The translations under genes and the position numbers were made by a program. Positions 1,253 to 64,000 of a DNA stretch of 64,000 nt are shown here, piece by piece. The notes below the pieces were generated by a model. The model saw only the letters and a list, made by a program, of their open reading frames with translations, was not told where the DNA came from and searched no databases. This DNA is from Fischerella sp. CENA71 (GTDB lineage: Bacteria; Cyanobacteriota; Cyanobacteriia; Cyanobacteriales; Nostocaceae): assembly GCA_024239075.1 (NCBI GenBank), contig JANBVI010000020.1, forward strand, positions 62,001-126,000, given 5' to 3'. Every line of letters begins with the position of its first letter. Positions within the stretch are counted from its first letter, which is position 1.

Positions 1253-3382
1253 GTGATAGGGAAAAAATATTTACTCGTAAATGGTGCTTCAGCAATTTTG
1301 TTGTTTCTATCAATAACTGCGGCAGAAGCTGTTGAGCAACCAATCCTAAAAAAAGAAATACTACAACTTCCTACTACAAATGTAGCTCAGTTGAGTGAAA
1401 AAGAATTAGTACCATCAAAGAAAAAACCAAAAGAAAATTCCCTTGAATGGCAGGAACAAAATACTACTCTGCAATCAGATTTAAATTTGGATGCAGAACA
1501 ATCAAAAAATCAGGTAAGTGATATTTCCCAGCAAAAAGATGACGAAAATACCTCAAGAAATAGCATTGAGCAAGTGACATCCGTGTCTCAATTATCGGAT
1601 GTGCGACCTACTGATTGGGCTTTTCAAGCATTGCAATCTCTCGTAGAACGGTATGGCGTAATTGCTGGTTATCCAGATGGCACCTTCCGAGGGAATCGTC
1701 CGATGACACGCTACGAATTTGCTGCGGGATTAAATGCAGCCTTGGACAAGATTAATGAACTTGCTGCTGCTGGTACAGAAGATAAAGTTCGTAAAGAGGA
1801 TTTAGTCACACTGCAAAAACTACAAGAAGAGTTTGCTGCTGAATTAACTGCTTTACGAGGTCGTGTTGATAATCTAGAAGCTCGTACAGCAGAAATAGCA
1901 GCTAATCAATTCTCGACAACTACAGTACTCGGAGGAGAAGTAATTTTTGCAGTGGCGAGCGCCTTTGGAGGTAACCCACCAGGGGGATGTAGATTTTTAG
2001 GTGACAATACTCCCCCCTTTAGCGATCGCGATTCAAATCGTGAAGTTGACTGTAGAAATCGAAAAGATCCAGGCAAAAATACAGTTTTGGCTCATTTGAC
2101 TCGCTTGGGATTGGAAACCTCGTTTTCTGGAAAAGATCGCTTGCGAACTTATCTAGTAACAGGCAATTTTGATAACGGTGGTTTTACAAATGCTGAGTCA
2201 TTGAATACCTATATGTCTCGGCTATCTTACCAGGCAGGCTTAGAAAATAAAGTCATACTGGATTTACTGGAATATCGGTTTCCTGCCTTTAATGATCGCG
2301 TTGTCTTTAGTGTTATTCCCTTTGGTTTCAGCCTCAGCAATGTTTTGAGCGCCAACTCTCCTTACTTTGATACAGGAAGAGGTGCAATCTCAAGCTTTGG
2401 AGAAGCAAGCCCCATTTTTAAAATAGGCGGAGTTTTGGATGCTGGTGCAGGCTTTGATTGGTTAATTTCTGATGCAATACGCCTGCAAGTAGCTTATGGT
2501 ACAGGAGGTAGCGGTAACTCAGAGGAAGGATTCTTTGGCGCGGACAGAAGTGTCATCGGCGCACAATTAGTAGTAGCACCCTTTGACAATCTGATTACAG
2601 GAATAACTTATGTAAATGCATATACCAGTAATGGTGTATTGGGTACATTTACAGGTAGTGTGAATGCCGAAACCTCTGGTTTGTGGTCCGGTTCATCCGT
2701 TCCTGCACCCGCAGACAGAGCAAATGGTTCTGGCTTTGATGGCTGCTGTAGATATTTTATCGGGGATCGAGCTGCCAACACTAATGCTGTTGGGGCTACA
2801 TTGCAATGGCGCGTTACCGATAAATTGACCTTTGGAGCTTGGGGAGGATATATGTTTACCCAATTCCGAGATCGACTTCCTGATTTCTCTTCTTCTGGAT
2901 CTGTCGATGGTGATAATATTCCTGATGGAATTGGAACTTCAGCGGGCAAGAAACCTTTTGCCAACGCTGCCACTTTCCTATTTTCTTTGGGTGTTTCTGA
3001 TCCGTTTGGTAGAGAAGGAGATTTATTTGGCTTTCTATTTGGTATGCCGCCCAAATTAGTTGATGCTGGACCTGAAACACAAGGCACACCTGTACCTTTT
3101 TATGAATCCTCAAGAAGAGGTGAACCTGATGTTCCAGTAACTGATAATAATAAAGAACTAGACACTACGGGAATTGCAGTAAACCAAACTGGAGACTCCT
3201 TGCCAAGGAGAATTGGAAAGAAAGATGAAGCGACTTCTCTGCACTTTGAAGTTTTCTACCGCTTTAGGGTAAGTGATAATGTGTGGATTACACCTGGCTT
3301 TTTCGTTGTCACAAATCCAGGGCATATTGCTGATAACGATACGATTTTCGTTGGTACTCTCCGCACTACCTTCCGCTTTTAG
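1253..3382 (+). CDS. SLH-domain outer-membrane porin (iron-uptake porin type)
   Basis: A 709-residue precursor. Residues 1-26 look like a signal peptide ending near AEA-VEQ. A low-complexity linker follows, then an SLH domain at about 112-165 (LSDVRPTDWAFQAL, GYPDGTFRGNRPMTRYEFA), a coiled coil at about 175-215, and a long beta-barrel domain ending in phenylalanine (TTFRF), as outer-membrane proteins do. This layout is that of cyanobacterial SLH/OprB porins, which anchor to peptidoglycan through SLH and pass small solutes, including inorganic iron, through the barrel. The start is GTG; an in-frame TGA lies seven codons or fewer upstream, and GTGAGG at about 1236 is a plausible ribosome site. 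The substrate is inferred from the family, not shown. Confidence 0.9.
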   Translation: MIGKKYLLVNGASAILLFLSITAAEAVEQPILKKEILQLPTTNVAQLSEKELVPSKKKPKENSLEWQEQNTTLQSDLNLDAEQSKNQVSDISQQKDDENTSRNSIEQVTSVSQLSDVRPTDWAFQALQSLVERYGVIAGYPDGTFRGNRPMTRYEFAAGLNAALDKINELAAAGTEDKVRKEDLVTLQKLQEEFAAELTALRGRVDNLEARTAEIAANQFSTTTVLGGEVIFAVASAFGGNPPGGCRFLGDNTPPFSDRDSNREVDCRNRKDPGKNTVLAHLTRLGLETSFSGKDRLRTYLVTGNFDNGGFTNAESLNTYMSRLSYQAGLENKVILDLLEYRFPAFNDRVVFSVIPFGFSLSNVLSANSPYFDTGRGAISSFGEASPIFKIGGVLDAGAGFDWLISDAIRLQVAYGTGGSGNSEEGFFGADRSVIGAQLVVAPFDNLITGITYVNAYTSNGVLGTFTGSVNAETSGLWSGSSVPAPADRANGSGFDGCCRYFIGDRAANTNAVGATLQWRVTDKLTFGAWGGYMFTQFRDRLPDFSSSGSVDGDNIPDGIGTSAGKKPFANAATFLFSLGVSDPFGREGDLFGFLFGMPPKLVDAGPETQGTPVPFYESSRRGEPDVPVTDNNKELDTTGIAVNQTGDSLPRRIGKKDEATSLHFEVFYRFRVSDNVWITPGFFVVTNPGHIADNDTIFVGTLRTTFRF

Positions 3383-3391
3383 AGGGTGTTT

Positions 3392-3432
3392 TTGACATTC
3401 CCACGCGCTTATAGCCGTGGGGTTCTTGCTTC
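3392..3432 (+). repeat. Hairpin element resembling an IS200/IS605 end
   Basis: The sequence reads TTGACATTC, a 6-bp stem (3400-3405 with 3416-3421) and GTTCTTGCTTC. A second copy with the same conserved flanks but a different stem lies inverted at 7988-8032. The conserved flanks around a variable hairpin resemble the ends of cyanobacterial IS200/IS605 (TnpB) elements. No transposase is next to it, so it is a remnant or a solitary end. It may also act as a terminator between the two convergent genes. Confidence 0.5.
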
Positions 3433-3443
3433 ATCCAGCCAAC

Positions 3444-5072
3444 TTATTTTTTGAGATTCTTATATATCAAAATTTGAGTAGGGTCTAGTTGAACACCACT
3501 CATCCCAGTTTGAGCGAAGACATAATCTTTACTTTGCCATAAAGGAATGTAAGGTATATCTCGCGCCAATATATTTTGAATTTCTGCAAATATTTGCTTA
3601 CGTGCTTCAGGGTTTTGTTCTTGTCGTTGTTTGTCAATCAGTTGATTCATCTGAGGATTATAGTAAAAAGAACCCTGAGATTGACTTCCCCCATTTTCAC
3701 ATCCCTTTGCTAGTGAACCTTTGTCACAAGATAAAAATGGTTGAATATAATTATCTGCGTCCAAAAAATCAGGATACCAATCTAGTAAAAATGTTGGATA
3801 TAAACCTTTAGCAATATTTTTAAAAGCGGTAGTAGACTCTACAGTATTTATTTCAAATTGCAGTAGACCATCCATTGTTTTTTTAGCAAGAGCTTTGATT
3901 ACTATTGCTGCTAAACTCCGAGTTGGAGAACCAGAAGGATACCAAAGTTCGACTTTGGCTGGATTATCTTTGGAAAAGCCTGCTTTGATCAGGAATTCTT
4001 TAGCTTTTTGGATATTTCCATCACCATATTGCTCTAGGAAAACAGGCTGATAATCATTGAATCCTTTTGGGATCAAACTATAAAGTGCTTCTGCTTGGTC
4101 GTACAATACTCGTTTATACATTAATGGACGATTCACCATTGCTGCGATCGCACTTCTAACTGCTGGGTTATCCACTGGCTTTTGATTACGGTTGATAGCC
4201 AAATAACTGACTACATTACCTTGATTAGGAATCGCTTGCCAAACCCCTTTTTTTGCACTCGCTTCCAAGCTACGAACTTGGTCTGGGTCCATACTTAAGC
4301 CAGCTACATCCACAGCTTTTTTACGGAAGGCGTTATATAAATTCACACCACTGCTAAAAATTTGGACATTAATACCTTGATTTAAGGGTTTTTCGCCCCA
4401 ATATTTGTCAAATACATCAAACTGTAATGAATCAGGCCCAAATTTTGTCAACTTATAAGGGCCAGTACCAACAAAAATATTCGGGTTAAATTTTCCTTCA
4501 CCAATTTCATAAGCTTTTGGCGATACCGGACAAACACCAGCAAACGCCAGCAAAGACGGAAATGCTGCAAATGGCTTTTTCAGCTTGATTGTTAATTCAT
4601 ATTCGCTTGTAGCTTTGGCTGACTCTACGACATCTCCTAGCAAAAAAGCAGGTTTACCCTTATTTTCAATAAAACGGCGTATGGTGAAAGCCATTGCTTC
4701 CGCATTAAAAGGAGTTCCATCGTGAAATACTACTCCTTGACGTAGAGGGATAGTATAAGTCAAACCATCTGGACTCACTTTCGGGAAAGCGGTAGCTAGC
4801 TGTGGTTTAATTTCCGTGTTTCCTGGTTCATAGGTGTAGAGGCGATCGCTTATGTTGTATACCAATGATAGTGAAGCCAATTCATAAGCATCAGATGGAT
4901 CGAGAGTACGTGGTTTTAGTGTTGTACCAACAGTAATGCGACCATTACCAGATACTAATGTGTTTGTTTGGGAACTATTACCACAACCTACAACTAACAA
5001 TAAACACAGACAAACAACCAGCACTTGTGTTATCTGCACCCATCGTCTAGGAAACAAAAAAGACCAGTTCAT
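3444..5072 (-). CDS. ABC transporter substrate-binding lipoprotein, family 5 (peptide/nickel type)
   Basis: A 542-residue protein. The N-terminus is a lipoprotein signal: a basic start, a hydrophobic stretch and the lipobox VVGC, so the mature protein should be attached to the membrane at Cys30. The rest follows the family 5 extracellular binding protein pattern: the entry TVGTTLKPRTLDPSDAYE, the block PLRQGVVFHDGTPFNAEAMA, and the late segment NPEARKQIFAEIQNILARDIPYIPLW. Such proteins bind oligopeptides, nickel or other solutes in the periplasm and feed an ABC importer. No permease or ATPase gene is adjacent, so the partner must be elsewhere. The ligand cannot be deduced. It is convergent with the porin gene. 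Confidence 0.9.
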   Translation of the reverse strand: MNWSFLFPRRWVQITQVLVVCLCLLLVVGCGNSSQTNTLVSGNGRITVGTTLKPRTLDPSDAYELASLSLVYNISDRLYTYEPGNTEIKPQLATAFPKVSPDGLTYTIPLRQGVVFHDGTPFNAEAMAFTIRRFIENKGKPAFLLGDVVESAKATSEYELTIKLKKPFAAFPSLLAFAGVCPVSPKAYEIGEGKFNPNIFVGTGPYKLTKFGPDSLQFDVFDKYWGEKPLNQGINVQIFSSGVNLYNAFRKKAVDVAGLSMDPDQVRSLEASAKKGVWQAIPNQGNVVSYLAINRNQKPVDNPAVRSAIAAMVNRPLMYKRVLYDQAEALYSLIPKGFNDYQPVFLEQYGDGNIQKAKEFLIKAGFSKDNPAKVELWYPSGSPTRSLAAIVIKALAKKTMDGLLQFEINTVESTTAFKNIAKGLYPTFLLDWYPDFLDADNYIQPFLSCDKGSLAKGCENGGSQSQGSFYYNPQMNQLIDKQRQEQNPEARKQIFAEIQNILARDIPYIPLWQSKDYVFAQTGMSGVQLDPTQILIYKNLKK

Positions 5073-5645: not shown

Positions 5646-5981
5646 GTGAAGTACTTCTTTTTATCTGAAGGATGGACAGTTGGCAGAGTTTGGGCATCTG
5701 AAGGACTTTGGCAAATAACTGCATGGCGACGCCAACCAGATATTCAACGTATGAATATTTGTTTATTAGAACAAGGCGAAGTAATGTGGCTGTACCGAGT
5801 CGAAGATGCCATTATCACCGTAGAAGTGAAGCCAGCTATATCACCACAAACAAGTAGATCTACTCAAGCGATCGGTCAAGTCATACTGAGGCGGTTAATG
5901 AGTGCTGAACAAGTCATAGAGCGCTTGGAGACTGCCTCAGCTAGGTGTCAGCTACAAAATATAGAATCTATCGTGCAGTAG
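5646..5981 (+). CDS. Conserved-type hypothetical protein upstream of psbB
   Basis: A 111-residue soluble protein starting at GTG. It has no signal peptide or membrane segment. It opens MKYFFLSEGWTVGRVWASEG, is tryptophan-rich in the first 50 residues, and ends in a helical region with LRRLMSAEQVIERLE. I recognise no catalytic motif. The codon use fits the neighbouring genes and the frame is free of stops, which supports a real gene. It precedes psbB on the same strand but 359 bp away, so co-transcription is doubtful. The function is unknown. Confidence 0.7.
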   Translation: MKYFFLSEGWTVGRVWASEGLWQITAWRRQPDIQRMNICLLEQGEVMWLYRVEDAIITVEVKPAISPQTSRSTQAIGQVILRRLMSAEQVIERLETASARCQLQNIESIVQ

Positions 5982-6340
5982 AGATTAAGAATTAAAAATC
6001 AGGGGTTGATTGGTTGGTAGTTGGTCGTTGATTTTTTGTAACAAAAACGAAACAAAAGACAACAGCCTACTACTAACCACTATCTACCGATTAGTAACTA
6101 AGCTTAAGTGCCTTAATACCCTTGCAAACAGCTCCATCAATAGTTACACTTTTTTAAACATTCTCATTTTTACTTAGCGATCGCGACCTTGGGGTAACAC
6201 ACCCTGAAAGTGTCGTGTGTCGTTCAAGTAGCCACGCTGTCTGACTTTTAAGACCAAGCTGTGGAAAATTCAAGCTCTGGCAATAAAAAAACACAGAAAA
6301 ATTGTTTTGTAAACAAACTCATCGAGGAGGAGCGTAGTCG
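5982..6340. promoter_or_regulatory. psbB upstream region, 359 bp
   Basis: This is the leader and promoter region of psbB. It holds short direct and inverted GGTTGGTAGTT / CTACTAACC repeats at about 6010-6090 and ends in a strong GAGGAGGAG ribosome site at about 6323-6331, ten bases before the ATG. I could not assign a -10/-35 pair with confidence. Confidence 0.4.
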
Positions 6341-7870
6341 ATGGGACTACCTTGGTACCGAGTACACACAGTCGTTCTGAATGATCCAGGACGACTGATT
6401 TCTGTACACTTGATGCACACAGCGTTGGTGGCTGGCTGGGCTGGTTCAATGGCTTTATACGAACTGGCTATCTATGATCCCAGTGACCCAGTTCTCAACC
6501 CCATGTGGCGTCAAGGTATGTTCGTGCTGCCCTTCATGGCACGCTTGGGTGTTGTAGGCTCTTGGGGTGGTTGGAACGTTACTGGCGCAACCAACTACGA
6601 CCCTGGTTTTTGGTCATTTGAAGGTGTAGCCGCCGCTCATATTGTTCTATCTGGTCTGTTATTCCTAGCTGCCGTTTGGCACTGGGTTTTTTGGGACTTG
6701 GAACTATTCCAAGACCCCCGCACTGGTGAACCTGCTCTTGACTTGCCAAAAATGTTTGGCATTCACTTGTTCTTATCTGGTCTTCTCTGTTTCGGTTTTG
6801 GTGCTTTCCACCTCACCGGACTTTGGGGACCGGGAATGTGGGTGTCTGACGCCTACGGCTTAACTGGTCACATAGCACCAGTCGCACCAGAGTGGGGACC
6901 GGATGGGTTTAACCCATTCAACCCTGGTGGTGTCGTAGCTCACCACATCGCCGCAGGCGTTGTCGGCATTATTGCTGGTTTATTCCACCTGACAGTCAGA
7001 CCACCCGAAAGGCTCTACAAAGCCCTACGGATGGGTAATATTGAAACCGTACTTTCTAGCAGTATTGCTGCTGTATTTTTTGCTGCTTTTGTCGTTGCTG
7101 GTACTATGTGGTACGGTAGCGCCACCACTCCAATCGAATTGTTTGGCCCTACCCGCTATCAGTGGGATCAAAGCTACTTCAAGCAAGAAATTCAGCGTCG
7201 CGTACAGACAAGTATTGCTTCTGGCGAGACTCCTTCGGAAGCTTGGTCGCAAATTCCTGAAAAATTGGCATTCTACGATTATGTCGGCAATAGCCCCGCC
7301 AAAGGCGGTCTATTCCGTACAGGTCCTATGGTGAAAGGTGATGGTATAGCCCAATCTTGGGTTGGTCATCCTGTATTCACAGATGCCGAAGGACGGGAAT
7401 TAGAAGTACGTCGTTTGCCCAACTTCTTTGAAACCTTCCCTGTAATTCTGACCGACAAAGATGGTATTGTCCGTGCTGACATTCCTTTCCGTCGTGCAGA
7501 ATCTCAAAATAGCTTTGAGCAAAGTGGTGTGAAAGTTGCCTTCTATGGTGGTGACTTAAATGGTCAAAGCTTTACAGACCCCGCAGACGTGAAGAAGTGG
7601 GCGCGTAAAGCTCAAGGTGGTGAAGTATTTGACTTCGATAGGGAAACTTTAAACTCTGATGGTGTATTCCGCACCAGTCCTAGAGGTTGGTTTACCTTTG
7701 GACACGCCTGCTTTGCATTATTGTTCTTCTTCGGTCATATATGGCATGGTTCTCGGACAATTTACCGAGACGTGTTTGCTGGTGTTGACCCAGACTTGGA
7801 AGAACAGGTCGAGTTTGGTGTATTTGCGAAAGTGGGTGACTTGTCCACTCGTAAGAAGGAAGCTGTTTAA
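6341..7870 (+). CDS. psbB: Photosystem II CP47 chlorophyll apoprotein
   Basis: A 509-residue protein that opens [18 protein letters not shown], the signature start of CP47. CP47 is the inner antenna of photosystem II: six membrane helices bind about 16 chlorophyll a and pass excitation to the D1/D2 reaction centre, and a large lumenal loop sits between helices five and six (here about residues 260-450). Histidines that ligate chlorophyll are visible in the membrane segments ([52 protein letters not shown]). The length is normal. psbT follows on the same strand, the usual cyanobacterial order. Confidence 0.99.
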
Positions 7871-61355: not shown

Positions 61356-62342
61356 ATGGCTAAGAGTTTAGTTACCGGATCTGCTGGTTTTATTGGCTCT
61401 CATCTTGTAGACGCATTATTGAAACAGGGAGAAGAAGTCATTGGTATAGATGAATTCAATGACTACTACGATCCTGTGATCAAACGTCAGAACATTGCAC
61501 ATTTACAAAACAATCCAGCGTTCACATTAATAGAGGGAAATATTCAAACTTTAGACTGGCACACACTTCTCAAAGATGTCGATGTCATCTATCATCAAGC
61601 AGCACAAGCAGGAGTGAGAGCCAGTTGGGGTCAAGGTTTTCGTGCTTACACCGAACGCAATATTAACAGTACTCAAGTTTTGTTGGAAGCAGCAAAAGAT
61701 ACTCCCACTCTCAAAAGGTTGGTATTTGCCTCTACTTCCAGTGTGTATGGTGATGCTGAAACTCTACCAACCCATGAAGAAATTTGTCCCAAACCTGTTT
61801 CACCTTACGGGATTACCAAGCTAGCAACCGAGCGTTTATGTGGACTTTATCAGAAAAATTTTGGTGTACCATTTGTATCTTTGCGCTATTTTACTGTGTA
61901 TGGGCCAAGGCAACGCCCTGATATGGCGTTTCATAAGTTTTTTAAAGCAGTTTTAACAGATGAAGCTATTCCAATTTATGGCGATGGACAGCAAACTCGA
62001 GACTTTACCTTTGTCAGTGATGCTGTAGCGGCGAATTTAGCCGCCGCTACCGTACCAGAAGCTATAGGGGAAATATTTAATATTGGCGGTGGTAGTAGAG
62101 TCGTTTTAGCAGAAGTTTTGAAGACAATGGAAGAAATTGTTGGGCATTCAATCAAAAAGAACTACATAGAAAGAGCTATGGGAGATGCTCGTCACACCGC
62201 AGCAGATGTGTCAAAAGCACGAAGTATTTTAGGATATCAGCCACAAGTTTCCCTCTATGAAGGATTAAGCCAACAATGGCAGTGGATACAATCATTTTAT
62301 TTACAGAAAGTCGGCGGCAAAGAATTCCTTCGAGATCGGTAA
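61356..62342 (+). CDS. NAD-dependent sugar-nucleotide epimerase/dehydratase
   Basis: A 328-residue extended SDR. The NAD loop is VTGSAGFIGSHLVDALL, the acidic NAD-ribose contact is in IGIDEFNDYYD, the catalytic Ser/Thr is in FASTSSVYGD and the YxxxK pair in SPYGITK. The DYYDP block and HQAAQAGVRASWG fit the UDP-glucuronate 4-epimerase group, but UDP-glucose 4-epimerases or dTDP-glucose dehydratases are near relatives. It should supply a sugar nucleotide for surface polysaccharide. It stands alone, with repeat DNA downstream. Confidence 0.9.
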   Translation: MAKSLVTGSAGFIGSHLVDALLKQGEEVIGIDEFNDYYDPVIKRQNIAHLQNNPAFTLIEGNIQTLDWHTLLKDVDVIYHQAAQAGVRASWGQGFRAYTERNINSTQVLLEAAKDTPTLKRLVFASTSSVYGDAETLPTHEEICPKPVSPYGITKLATERLCGLYQKNFGVPFVSLRYFTVYGPRQRPDMAFHKFFKAVLTDEAIPIYGDGQQTRDFTFVSDAVAANLAAATVPEAIGEIFNIGGGSRVVLAEVLKTMEEIVGHSIKKNYIERAMGDARHTAADVSKARSILGYQPQVSLYEGLSQQWQWIQSFYLQKVGGKEFLRDR

Positions 62343-62344
62343 TT

Positions 62345-62397
62345 CGTAATTGGTAATTGGTAATTGGTGATTCTTACCCATTGCCCATTACCCATTG
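62345..62397. repeat. GGTAATT heptamers and CCCATTG/CCCATTA heptamers
   Basis: Three to four tandem TGGTAATT-type heptamers are followed by about three CCCATTG or CCCATTA heptamers. STRR-type DNA after the epimerase gene; it marks the region before the mobile element begins. Confidence 0.75.
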
Positions 62398-62632
62398 CAT
62401 AACCACATTCTGAGTCCCCTTGTGGACAAGGAATATTAAATCGATTGTTCAAAAAAACATTAAATTTTTATAAAAAACGCAATTTATCTTCTCCAACTGC
62501 AAAAGAGTACGATATCCTGTATAACAATTTGATAAACATGGTAGATGTTTCAATCCTGTCAAATTTGCTATTACTCAAGAATCTACCACTAAGCCCTTGT
62601 TTAAATGGGTAAGTTAAATAATGCACACATGT

Positions 62633-62840
62633 TAGTCAATAACCCTGCCCTAAAGAGGGACGGGGCTTGTAAGAGGCAAATCTTACGTGTTTGACTAGCC
62701 CATTGAGACACTGACTGACACGTACTGCCGGATGCTTCCCCAGTCCGGTTTATCTACAAACTGTTTTGCCGACAGTGTTGGGTAAAGCCAAGCCATTTTG
62801 TCAGTGTTGGGCGAGGGGACTTACAACTCTACTCGGAGGT
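62633..62840 (+). ncRNA. Putative omega-RNA (guide RNA scaffold) of the IsrB element
   Basis: The 200 bases before isrB have no ORF but many stems: TAGTCAA (62633-62639) with TTGACTA (62691-62697) closes a branch that holds CCCT/AGGG and a perfect GTAAGA/TCTTAC hairpin; CCGGA/TCCGG follows at about 62728-62748; then two copies of a CAGTGTTGGG block. In IscB and IsrB loci the guide RNA is encoded just upstream of the ORF, with the guide at its 5' end. The guide would thus lie just before 62633, where the AT-rich flank begins. Ends are estimates. Confidence 0.6.
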
Positions 62841-62848
62841 TTATCACC

Positions 62849-63967
62849 ATGTTACGAGTAAGCGTTCTATCACCACTAGGCAAACCCCTGATGCCAACAA
62901 AAGCCAGTCGTGCTAGACGTTGGTTGAAAGAGGGCAAAGCAAAGGTTGTACACAACGACCTTGGTATATTTCAGATTAAACTGATTTCGCATCCCAAATC
63001 TCAAAACACACAGGCAATTGCTGTAGGGGTTGACCCGGGCAAACATTACACAGATATTGGTGTGCAATCTGCGCGGAGTACCCTGTGGCTAGCTCATCTG
63101 CAACTGCCGTTCAAAACTGTGCGCTCCCGCATGGAACAGCGCCGCATCATGCGGAGAGGGCGCAGAGGTAGAAGAATCAATCGTAAGGTAGCGTTCAGTA
63201 AACGCGCACACCGCCAGAAGCGCTTTGATAACCGTCGCCAGTGCAAAATACCTCCAAGTATTCGAGCTAATCGCCAATTGGAGTTAAGAGTACTTGACGA
63301 ACTATCTTGGATTTACCCCATCACTACAGTGACTTACGAAATTGTTAAAGCGCGTGGTGACAAAGAGTTTAGTCCTGTGATGGTTGGTCAGAATTGGCAG
63401 TTGCAAAACCTGCAAGAATTTGGATTTGAGGAGGTTAAGCAGATTGAGGGCTGGCAGACTATCAATATCAGGCAACAGCTAAAGTTGCACAAACAGAAAC
63501 ACTCCAAAGGTGATGCGATTCCTGCTACTCATGCTGTTGATGGTGTCGCTCTTGCTGCAAGTGCATTTATTCGTTACGGCAGAATTGAGTGCCACTCTCA
63601 AGGGTGGATTGGTGAAATATCAGTAACACCAGCACCATTTACCGTAATTCGTCGTCCTCCCGTGTCGCGTCGTCAACTTCATCTGATGGTTCCCGCTCCT
63701 GGCGGGGTAAGGAGGAAATACGGCGGCACTGTGACGCGGTATGGGTTTAGGAAGGGTGACTACGTTGAAGCCACTCAAGGCGGTAGAACCTATCGTGCTT
63801 GGGTGAGTGGCGACACTGAAAAACAAGTTTCTGTCTCTGACCAAAACTGGAAACGGCTTGGTCAGTTCAGTAAAAACAAAGTCCGGTTGGTACAGCGAAG
63901 CACAGGTTTAATCGTGCTGCCAACTCGGAGATCGTCAAATCTCCTCCCATCGAAGGAGTCGGTTTGA
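62849..63967 (+). CDS. isrB: IsrB-like RNA-guided nickase (RRXRR family, no HNH domain)
   Basis: A 372-residue protein from ATG 62849, with GGAGG nine bases upstream; a TTG start 17 codons earlier is less likely. Parts in order: PLMP domain (GKPLMPTKASRARRWL), RuvC I (VGVDPGKHYTD, Asp62), Arg-rich bridge helix (about 98-130), RuvC II (VTYEIVKARG, Glu164), RuvC III (THAVDGVALA, His228/Asp231), then a C-terminal target-interaction domain (GGTVTRYGFRKGDYVEA; DQNWKRLGQF). Only 63 residues separate Glu164 from His228, so the HNH nuclease of IscB is absent; this is the IsrB plan. Known IsrB nicks DNA guided by an omega-RNA. It is a transposon gene with no transposase in view. Confidence 0.9.
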   Translation: MLRVSVLSPLGKPLMPTKASRARRWLKEGKAKVVHNDLGIFQIKLISHPKSQNTQAIAVGVDPGKHYTDIGVQSARSTLWLAHLQLPFKTVRSRMEQRRIMRRGRRGRRINRKVAFSKRAHRQKRFDNRRQCKIPPSIRANRQLELRVLDELSWIYPITTVTYEIVKARGDKEFSPVMVGQNWQLQNLQEFGFEEVKQIEGWQTINIRQQLKLHKQKHSKGDAIPATHAVDGVALAASAFIRYGRIECHSQGWIGEISVTPAPFTVIRRPPVSRRQLHLMVPAPGGVRRKYGGTVTRYGFRKGDYVEATQGGRTYRAWVSGDTEKQVSVSDQNWKRLGQFSKNKVRLVQRSTGLIVLPTRRSSNLLPSKESV

Positions 63968-64000
63968 CCTGCTATCCCTCCCCGACCTGCTTCGCTGAGG
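63968..64000. mobile_element. Start of the 3' flank of the IsrB element (cut by window end)
   Basis: 33 bases after the isrB stop read GCTATCCCTCCCCGACCTGC and on. It may begin the right end of the element, but the window stops before a boundary can be judged. Confidence 0.35.

Follow-up and report, generated by a model that had tools for sequence, protein, structure and literature searches.

A 64,000-nucleotide stretch of the genome of Fischerella sp. CENA71 (contig JANBVI010000020.1, positions 62,001 to 126,000; hereafter the window, with positions counted from its first letter) carries at its right-hand end an isrB gene, within what we read, with a probability of about 0.85, as a non-autonomous element of the IS200/IS605 superfamily (OMEGA) consisting of an omega-RNA and an IsrB nickase. 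This reading is carried by direct observations: the ends of the element, the arrangement of its guide and target-adjacent motif (TAM), a full-length homology and fold match to the IsrB of Desulfovirgula thermocuniculi (DtIsrB, PDB 8dmb), and an omega-RNA whose paired bases covary. An initial annotation, made from the sequence alone, had reported the gene as an intact IsrB, that is, an IscB without HNH. To this we add the omega-RNA with its guide, the TAM, both ends of the element, and amino-acid changes at two columns that are otherwise almost always glycine.

Ends, guide and target of the element

Four sibling genomes share the flanks of the element. In G004, G057 and G110 these flanks are joined with nothing between them: the 5' flank, ending in GCACACATGTTA or a near copy, runs straight into ATGA, and in the host the 1,390-bp element lies exactly between the two. 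Over the 22 nt that precede the element, G110 matches the host exactly, while G057 has one mismatch and G004 two. G110 in turn holds a different IsrB element of 1,508 bp, whose protein is 78% identical to the window IsrB; for this element the host genome, G057 and G004 each show an empty site precise to the base, and it ends at ATGA too. PMC9581776 describes the IsrB guide as the 5' end of the omega-RNA, with the TAM downstream of the target. ATGA is thus the expected TAM, and wild-type DtIsrB cleaves targets bearing ATGA (PMC9581776). By analogy with that published locus architecture, the host flank just ahead of the element would be transcribed as the guide, and the empty sites of both elements present a guide-matched target next to a predicted NTG(A) TAM. 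We also searched five genomes of the genus with 16 nt of the guide plus NTG, allowing at most two mismatches. Only the G110 empty site matches perfectly. In the host genome the insertion has separated the flank copy from its TAM, and a single further site is matched, with two mismatches; a backwards control pattern gave one match across the five genomes.

A cognate omega-RNA is predicted directly upstream of isrB. Leaders from 16 of 19 close loci (alignment A2, without L006, L013 and L014) share a 49-pair consensus structure, in which 31 pairs have changed on both sides against 19.2 in shuffles, 96.2% of cells are paired against 79.0, and covariation is 0.552 against 0.210; none of 500 shuffles reaches the observed structure on any of five measures. 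Moving the partners by 1-3 columns leaves 28-47% paired, a comparison that favours the structure over its slid versions because it was predicted from the very alignment tested. The omega-RNA of the G110 element (L006, G110:C8) has about 75 additional nt ahead of the 3' part of the scaffold. A search of the host genome for other omega-RNA copies found no match longer than 22 nt outside the element itself.

Table 1. Features of the IsrB element (window positions; residue numbers for protein domains)
Feature	Position	Strand	Remarks
Putative 20-nt guide in host flank (omega-RNA 5' end)	62615-62634	+	base-precise empty site
IsrB mobile element	62635-64024 (to 64000 in window)	+	1,390 bp; empty sites in 3 of 4 sibling genomes
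Element left end and omega-RNA scaffold	62635-62848	+	Rfam HEARO match 62635-62824
isrB open reading frame	62849-63967	+	372 codons and stop; ATG start; no internal stop
IsrB domains, N-terminal part	PLMP 1-~55; bridge helix 88-109		RuvC-I with D62; RuvC-II with E164
IsrB domains, remainder			short HNH-linker region; RuvC-III with H228/D231; TAM-interacting domain with R336/Q339
Element right end	63968-64000, on to 64024 beyond window	+	followed by ATGA (TAM) at 64025-64028

The fourth sibling, G089, has other DNA at the orthologous site (L079 1535-2020). There we observed a hairpin miniature inverted-repeat transposable element (MITE) of about 0.2 kb, of which G089 has nine more copies, 97-100% identical. 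After it comes a HEARO RNA that stands alone, with no open reading frame (ORF; 86.7 bits, above the gathering score), and of this RNA there are 78-84% identical copies in G089 and a few in two siblings. We do not claim an exact same-site HEARO insertion, the left junction belonging to the MITE, which starts GTCAA, and the right flank being about 20 nt short. The insertion site is possibly a hot spot, and with the MITE and the standalone RNA it could serve several OMEGA-type elements as a common landing site. A short repeat stretch in the window at 62339-62398 (taattggtaattggt...acccattgcccattaccc) recurs at several other places in the host genome and its siblings.

The protein and its relatives

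The ORF is intact where the annotation had placed it, and so are the PLMP domain and the bridge helix: a Pfam scan gives RRXRR at E 2.4e-44 and the alignment to DtIsrB, from which the domain names are taken as used in PMC9581776, agrees. GGAG, the likely Shine-Dalgarno sequence, precedes the ATG within a small hairpin at the 3' end of the omega-RNA scaffold. TTG at 62798 is a possible alternative start, but relatives keep the hairpin and the Shine-Dalgarno sequence before the start, which favours 62849. In a phmmer search DtIsrB matches residues 3-354 at E 4.1e-46, which is not chance, and the protein has the build of an IsrB, a small Cas9 relative lacking HNH, with a PLMP/RRXRR N-terminus, RuvC and a bridge helix in about 350 residues. 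The gene is single-copy in the host genome (7.47 Mb, 95 contigs), where no second RRXRR match was found at E<=0.001, and a Scytonema NIES-4073 homologue (L003/L052), which has Gly69, is 84% identical. For the window isrB the ratio of nonsynonymous to synonymous substitution rates is 0.07-0.11 against eight relatives, and single-step changes on its own branch divide into synonymous and nonsynonymous as 37:4, 42:8, 42:7 and 36:6 with four outgroups. A chance ORF or an old pseudogene is ruled out by the DtIsrB homology, the empty sites and these mostly synonymous changes. A promoter scan was uninformative, as it returned one site where 2.2 were expected, and that one inside the gene.

Asp62, Glu164, His228 and Asp231, correctly numbered in the annotation, are invariant in all 38 rows of alignment A1, and the TAM-reading residues R336 and Q339 are kept. 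A1 covers 38 of the 47 entries in our set of loci (L021 and L057, judged by length, are one contig entered twice); it omits L010, L011, L021, L057 and L073, which have stops or truncations, L072, a near-copy of L060, and L017, L058 and L059.

With DtIsrB the window IsrB shares the PLMP domain, a RuvC with bridge helix and no HNH, a TAM-interacting domain with its Arg/Gln pair, and an omega-RNA directly upstream that ends in a Shine-Dalgarno hairpin. The two are 37% identical in the fold alignment; they differ by insertions of the window IsrB in RECL and after RuvC-III, by a Val that aligns with the phosphate-lock Asn265 of DtIsrB, and by Asp69. CwIsrB (Crocosphaera) and DsIsrB (Dolichospermum), of subgroup B2 of Hirano et al. 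2022 (PMC9581776), were compared through their published description: they have a beta-hairpin in RuvC and an insertion in the RECL loop, likewise seen in the window IsrB relative to DtIsrB, and they function with their own omega-RNAs at NTG TAMs. A Dolichospermum plasmid IsrB, possibly DsIsrB itself, is 57% identical to ours. The annotation's remark that few IsrBs have been tested is reasonable. Six orthologues have nevertheless been assayed: they yielded TAMs in cleavage experiments and nicked DNA when guided by omega-RNA, and two of the six are cyanobacterial, with NTG TAMs (PMC9581776). IscB/HEARO elements share the upstream HEARO-type RNA, the RRXRR domain and the RuvC core, and differ in that IscB has HNH and another C-terminal region. 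In Scytonema NIES-4073 (L052) the closest IsrB homologue (2959-4113) and an IscB-like, HNH-bearing ORF (5793-7073) stand about 1.7 kb apart.

Other readings of the locus

Could the protein be an IscB that has secondarily lost its HNH? We regard this as very improbable, and profile, fold and tree all disfavour it. Its one support is that guided_IscB is the sole NCBIfam match at E<=1 (100.8 bits, residues 6-197), which does not reach the cut-off of 175. A Pfam scan found no HNH family in the window IsrB at E<=1, including residues 164-228, while the control IscB L092 gave HNH at 7e-12 in the same scan; the stretch from RuvC-II to RuvC-III aligns with the short linker of DtIsrB, where two IscBs carry HNH, so that the annotation was right to see no room for this domain. 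In a PDB search eight IscB sequences match, in their best stretches, only as far as residues 120-155, whereas DtIsrB matches over its full length. The RuvC-III column holds His in the window IsrB and Pro, Thr, Ser or a gap in the IscB rows, and no equivalents of Arg336/Gln339 were found among the 17 IscB rows of the alignment. In a 72-row tree these 17 IscBs separate at 100/100 from the window IsrB, 40 IsrB-like proteins, two other HNH-less groups (nine and four rows) and DtIsrB, although long branches make the placement of DtIsrB uncertain and the bootstrap had yet to converge completely. Columns occupied in under 30% of rows were removed; as IscBs account for 24%, the HNH insert is not expected to determine the split. 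The tree leaves out L010, L011, L017, L021, L057 and L073 of the 47-locus set, the PF14239 loci L102, L103, L105, L113, L115, L116 (no long ORF) and L109, and also L097 and L101, shortened by trimming, and the IsrBs L117-L120. The first of its other HNH-less groups (L154-L162; RRXRR proteins mostly of 344-365 aa, about 38% identical) retains the RuvC residues together with the Arg/Gln TAM pair; its RECL Phe is replaced by Leu, its C-terminus differs, and it groups with DtIsrB, perhaps through long branches. The other (L163-L166; 380-389 aa, about 45% identical) has an additional insertion ahead of the bridge helix. Identification of the window protein as an IsrB without HNH is thus well supported by sequence comparison.

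Several observations weigh against reading the locus as a working element. Codon 69 (GAT, 63053-63055, plus strand) places Asp in RuvC-I, seven residues past the catalytic Asp62 and within the second RuvC strand of the structural model, a position held by Gly in 70 of 71 aligned relatives and by Ser in one (Gly in 40/40 IsrB-like, 8/9 and 4/4 other HNH-less proteins, 17/17 IscBs and DtIsrB). Position 317 is Ala, and Gly in 69 of the 71; in the 38-row alignment both columns are Gly in all 37 other rows, from which the two-residue insertion at 193-194 of the window IsrB is absent as well. D69 and A317 could impair RuvC or the TAM domain, and with the insertion they weaken, without refuting, the annotation's argument that all key residues are present and the protein may therefore be active: the catalytic and TAM-reading residues are indeed kept, but two glycine columns are not. 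A recently inactivated IsrB, a young fossil in single copy and without an internal transposase, in which D69 and perhaps A317 abolished or reduced nicking, would account for these departures. We hold it to be unlikely, yet it is the most probable of the rivals. Against it stand the retained residues, the mostly synonymous changes on the gene's own branch, and the number of departures at columns at least 90% conserved, which at five is within the range of other rows (0-7, except three distant ones with 15, 15 and 24). TnpB-derived repressors suggest, by analogy, another outcome, an RNA-guided binder with a dead nuclease kept for regulation. D69 and the purifying selection on the branch would suit such a binder, but all four catalytic residues are kept, the best guide match in siblings is the element's own empty site, and three of the four siblings lack the insertion, so that the element is recent or mobile; we give this idea very little credence.

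Mobility, TAM and RNA add to what weighs against the non-autonomous IsrB element. It is in one copy and contains no Y1 transposase of its own, as an autonomous IS200/IS605 element would; the only two Y1_Tnp matches in the host genome are on another contig, C27, hence outside the element. Both Y1 genes adjoin TnpB genes (Pfam OrfB_IS605, Cas12f1-like_TNB; one of the TnpB ORFs has only 178 aa), and neither Y1 gene was retained as a cognate transposase, since besides their TnpB neighbours these loci share at most 10-11 nt with the element ends. With the two host Y1 proteins as its sole queries, tblastn found no Y1 gene in 54 loci carrying IsrB or a piece of it (flanks mostly of 1.5-3 kb). A right-end motif is recognisable in 24 of 47 IsrB loci, and [AT]TGA lies 10-17 nt past it in 24 of 24, the 23 loci without the motif not entering this count; but [AT]TGA also occurs in 22 of 48 control stretches further downstream (46%) and, being so common, leaves only the two empty sites to fix the TAM position exactly. 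Upstream of isrB HEARO (RF02033) scores 46.7 bits (E 5.7e-8), under its gathering score of 83. At that score there was no HEARO match in any of nine loci, eight relatives and the window's own copy, so the low score seems to reflect the kind of RNA and not decay. Nick-driven retention by IsrB is our inference.

How the element may work

We favour, then, a non-autonomous IsrB element, which would move in trans. Here a transcript would start in the host flank, cross the scaffold and run on into the isrB mRNA, and IsrB would bind the omega-RNA and read NTGA through R336/Q339. The guide would pair with its target and RuvC would nick the non-target strand; the window IsrB probably nicks DNA. For DtIsrB, nicks in the non-target strand have been published at about 8-11 nt upstream of the TAM. 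The natural target may be the empty copy of the element's own insertion site. A nick there would favour repair from the element-bearing copy, and the element would thereby be kept or spread, while mobilisation would need a Y1 transposase in trans. PMC11237433 describes a parallel: the IsrB homologue ORF2067 of Microcystis, with 207 bp of sequence before the gene and 59 bp after it, is inserted at ATGA in phage Mic1; the host differs and a phage gene is interrupted. The CENA71 element has a similar 214 bp upstream and 57 bp downstream of isrB. Homologues at 54-55% identity occur in seven records of Microcystis phages or cyanophages, among which two phages appear twice, one further homologue at 33% in an uncultured phage, and others on several cyanobacterial plasmids.

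A gene drive for its insertion sequence on plasmids has been reported for TnpB, another OMEGA nuclease (PMC11870625). We raise, as a speculative and rather doubtful extension, a natural drive based on nicks: IsrB would nick the empty allele of its own site, where 22 guide-flank nt are identical in a sibling and ATGA follows, and a transposase-less element would be copied in or retained through a single nick, not a double-strand break. A limited literature search found no published test of whether a nick suffices for such a drive.

The locus is a good and well-supported new example of the known IsrB family and not a new kind of system, and its novelty is small. Its value lies in what it supplies from sequence alone: a protein, an omega-RNA, a native guide, a native target in a sibling genome and a TAM. 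D69, a natural variant at a RuvC glycine nearly invariant among 71 IsrB/IscB rows, is a useful caution on activity, and the Rfam HEARO model fails to recover omega-RNAs of this IsrB type when its gathering score is applied. The pair of filled and empty sites makes it testable why a mobile element keeps a nickase and not a double-strand cutter.
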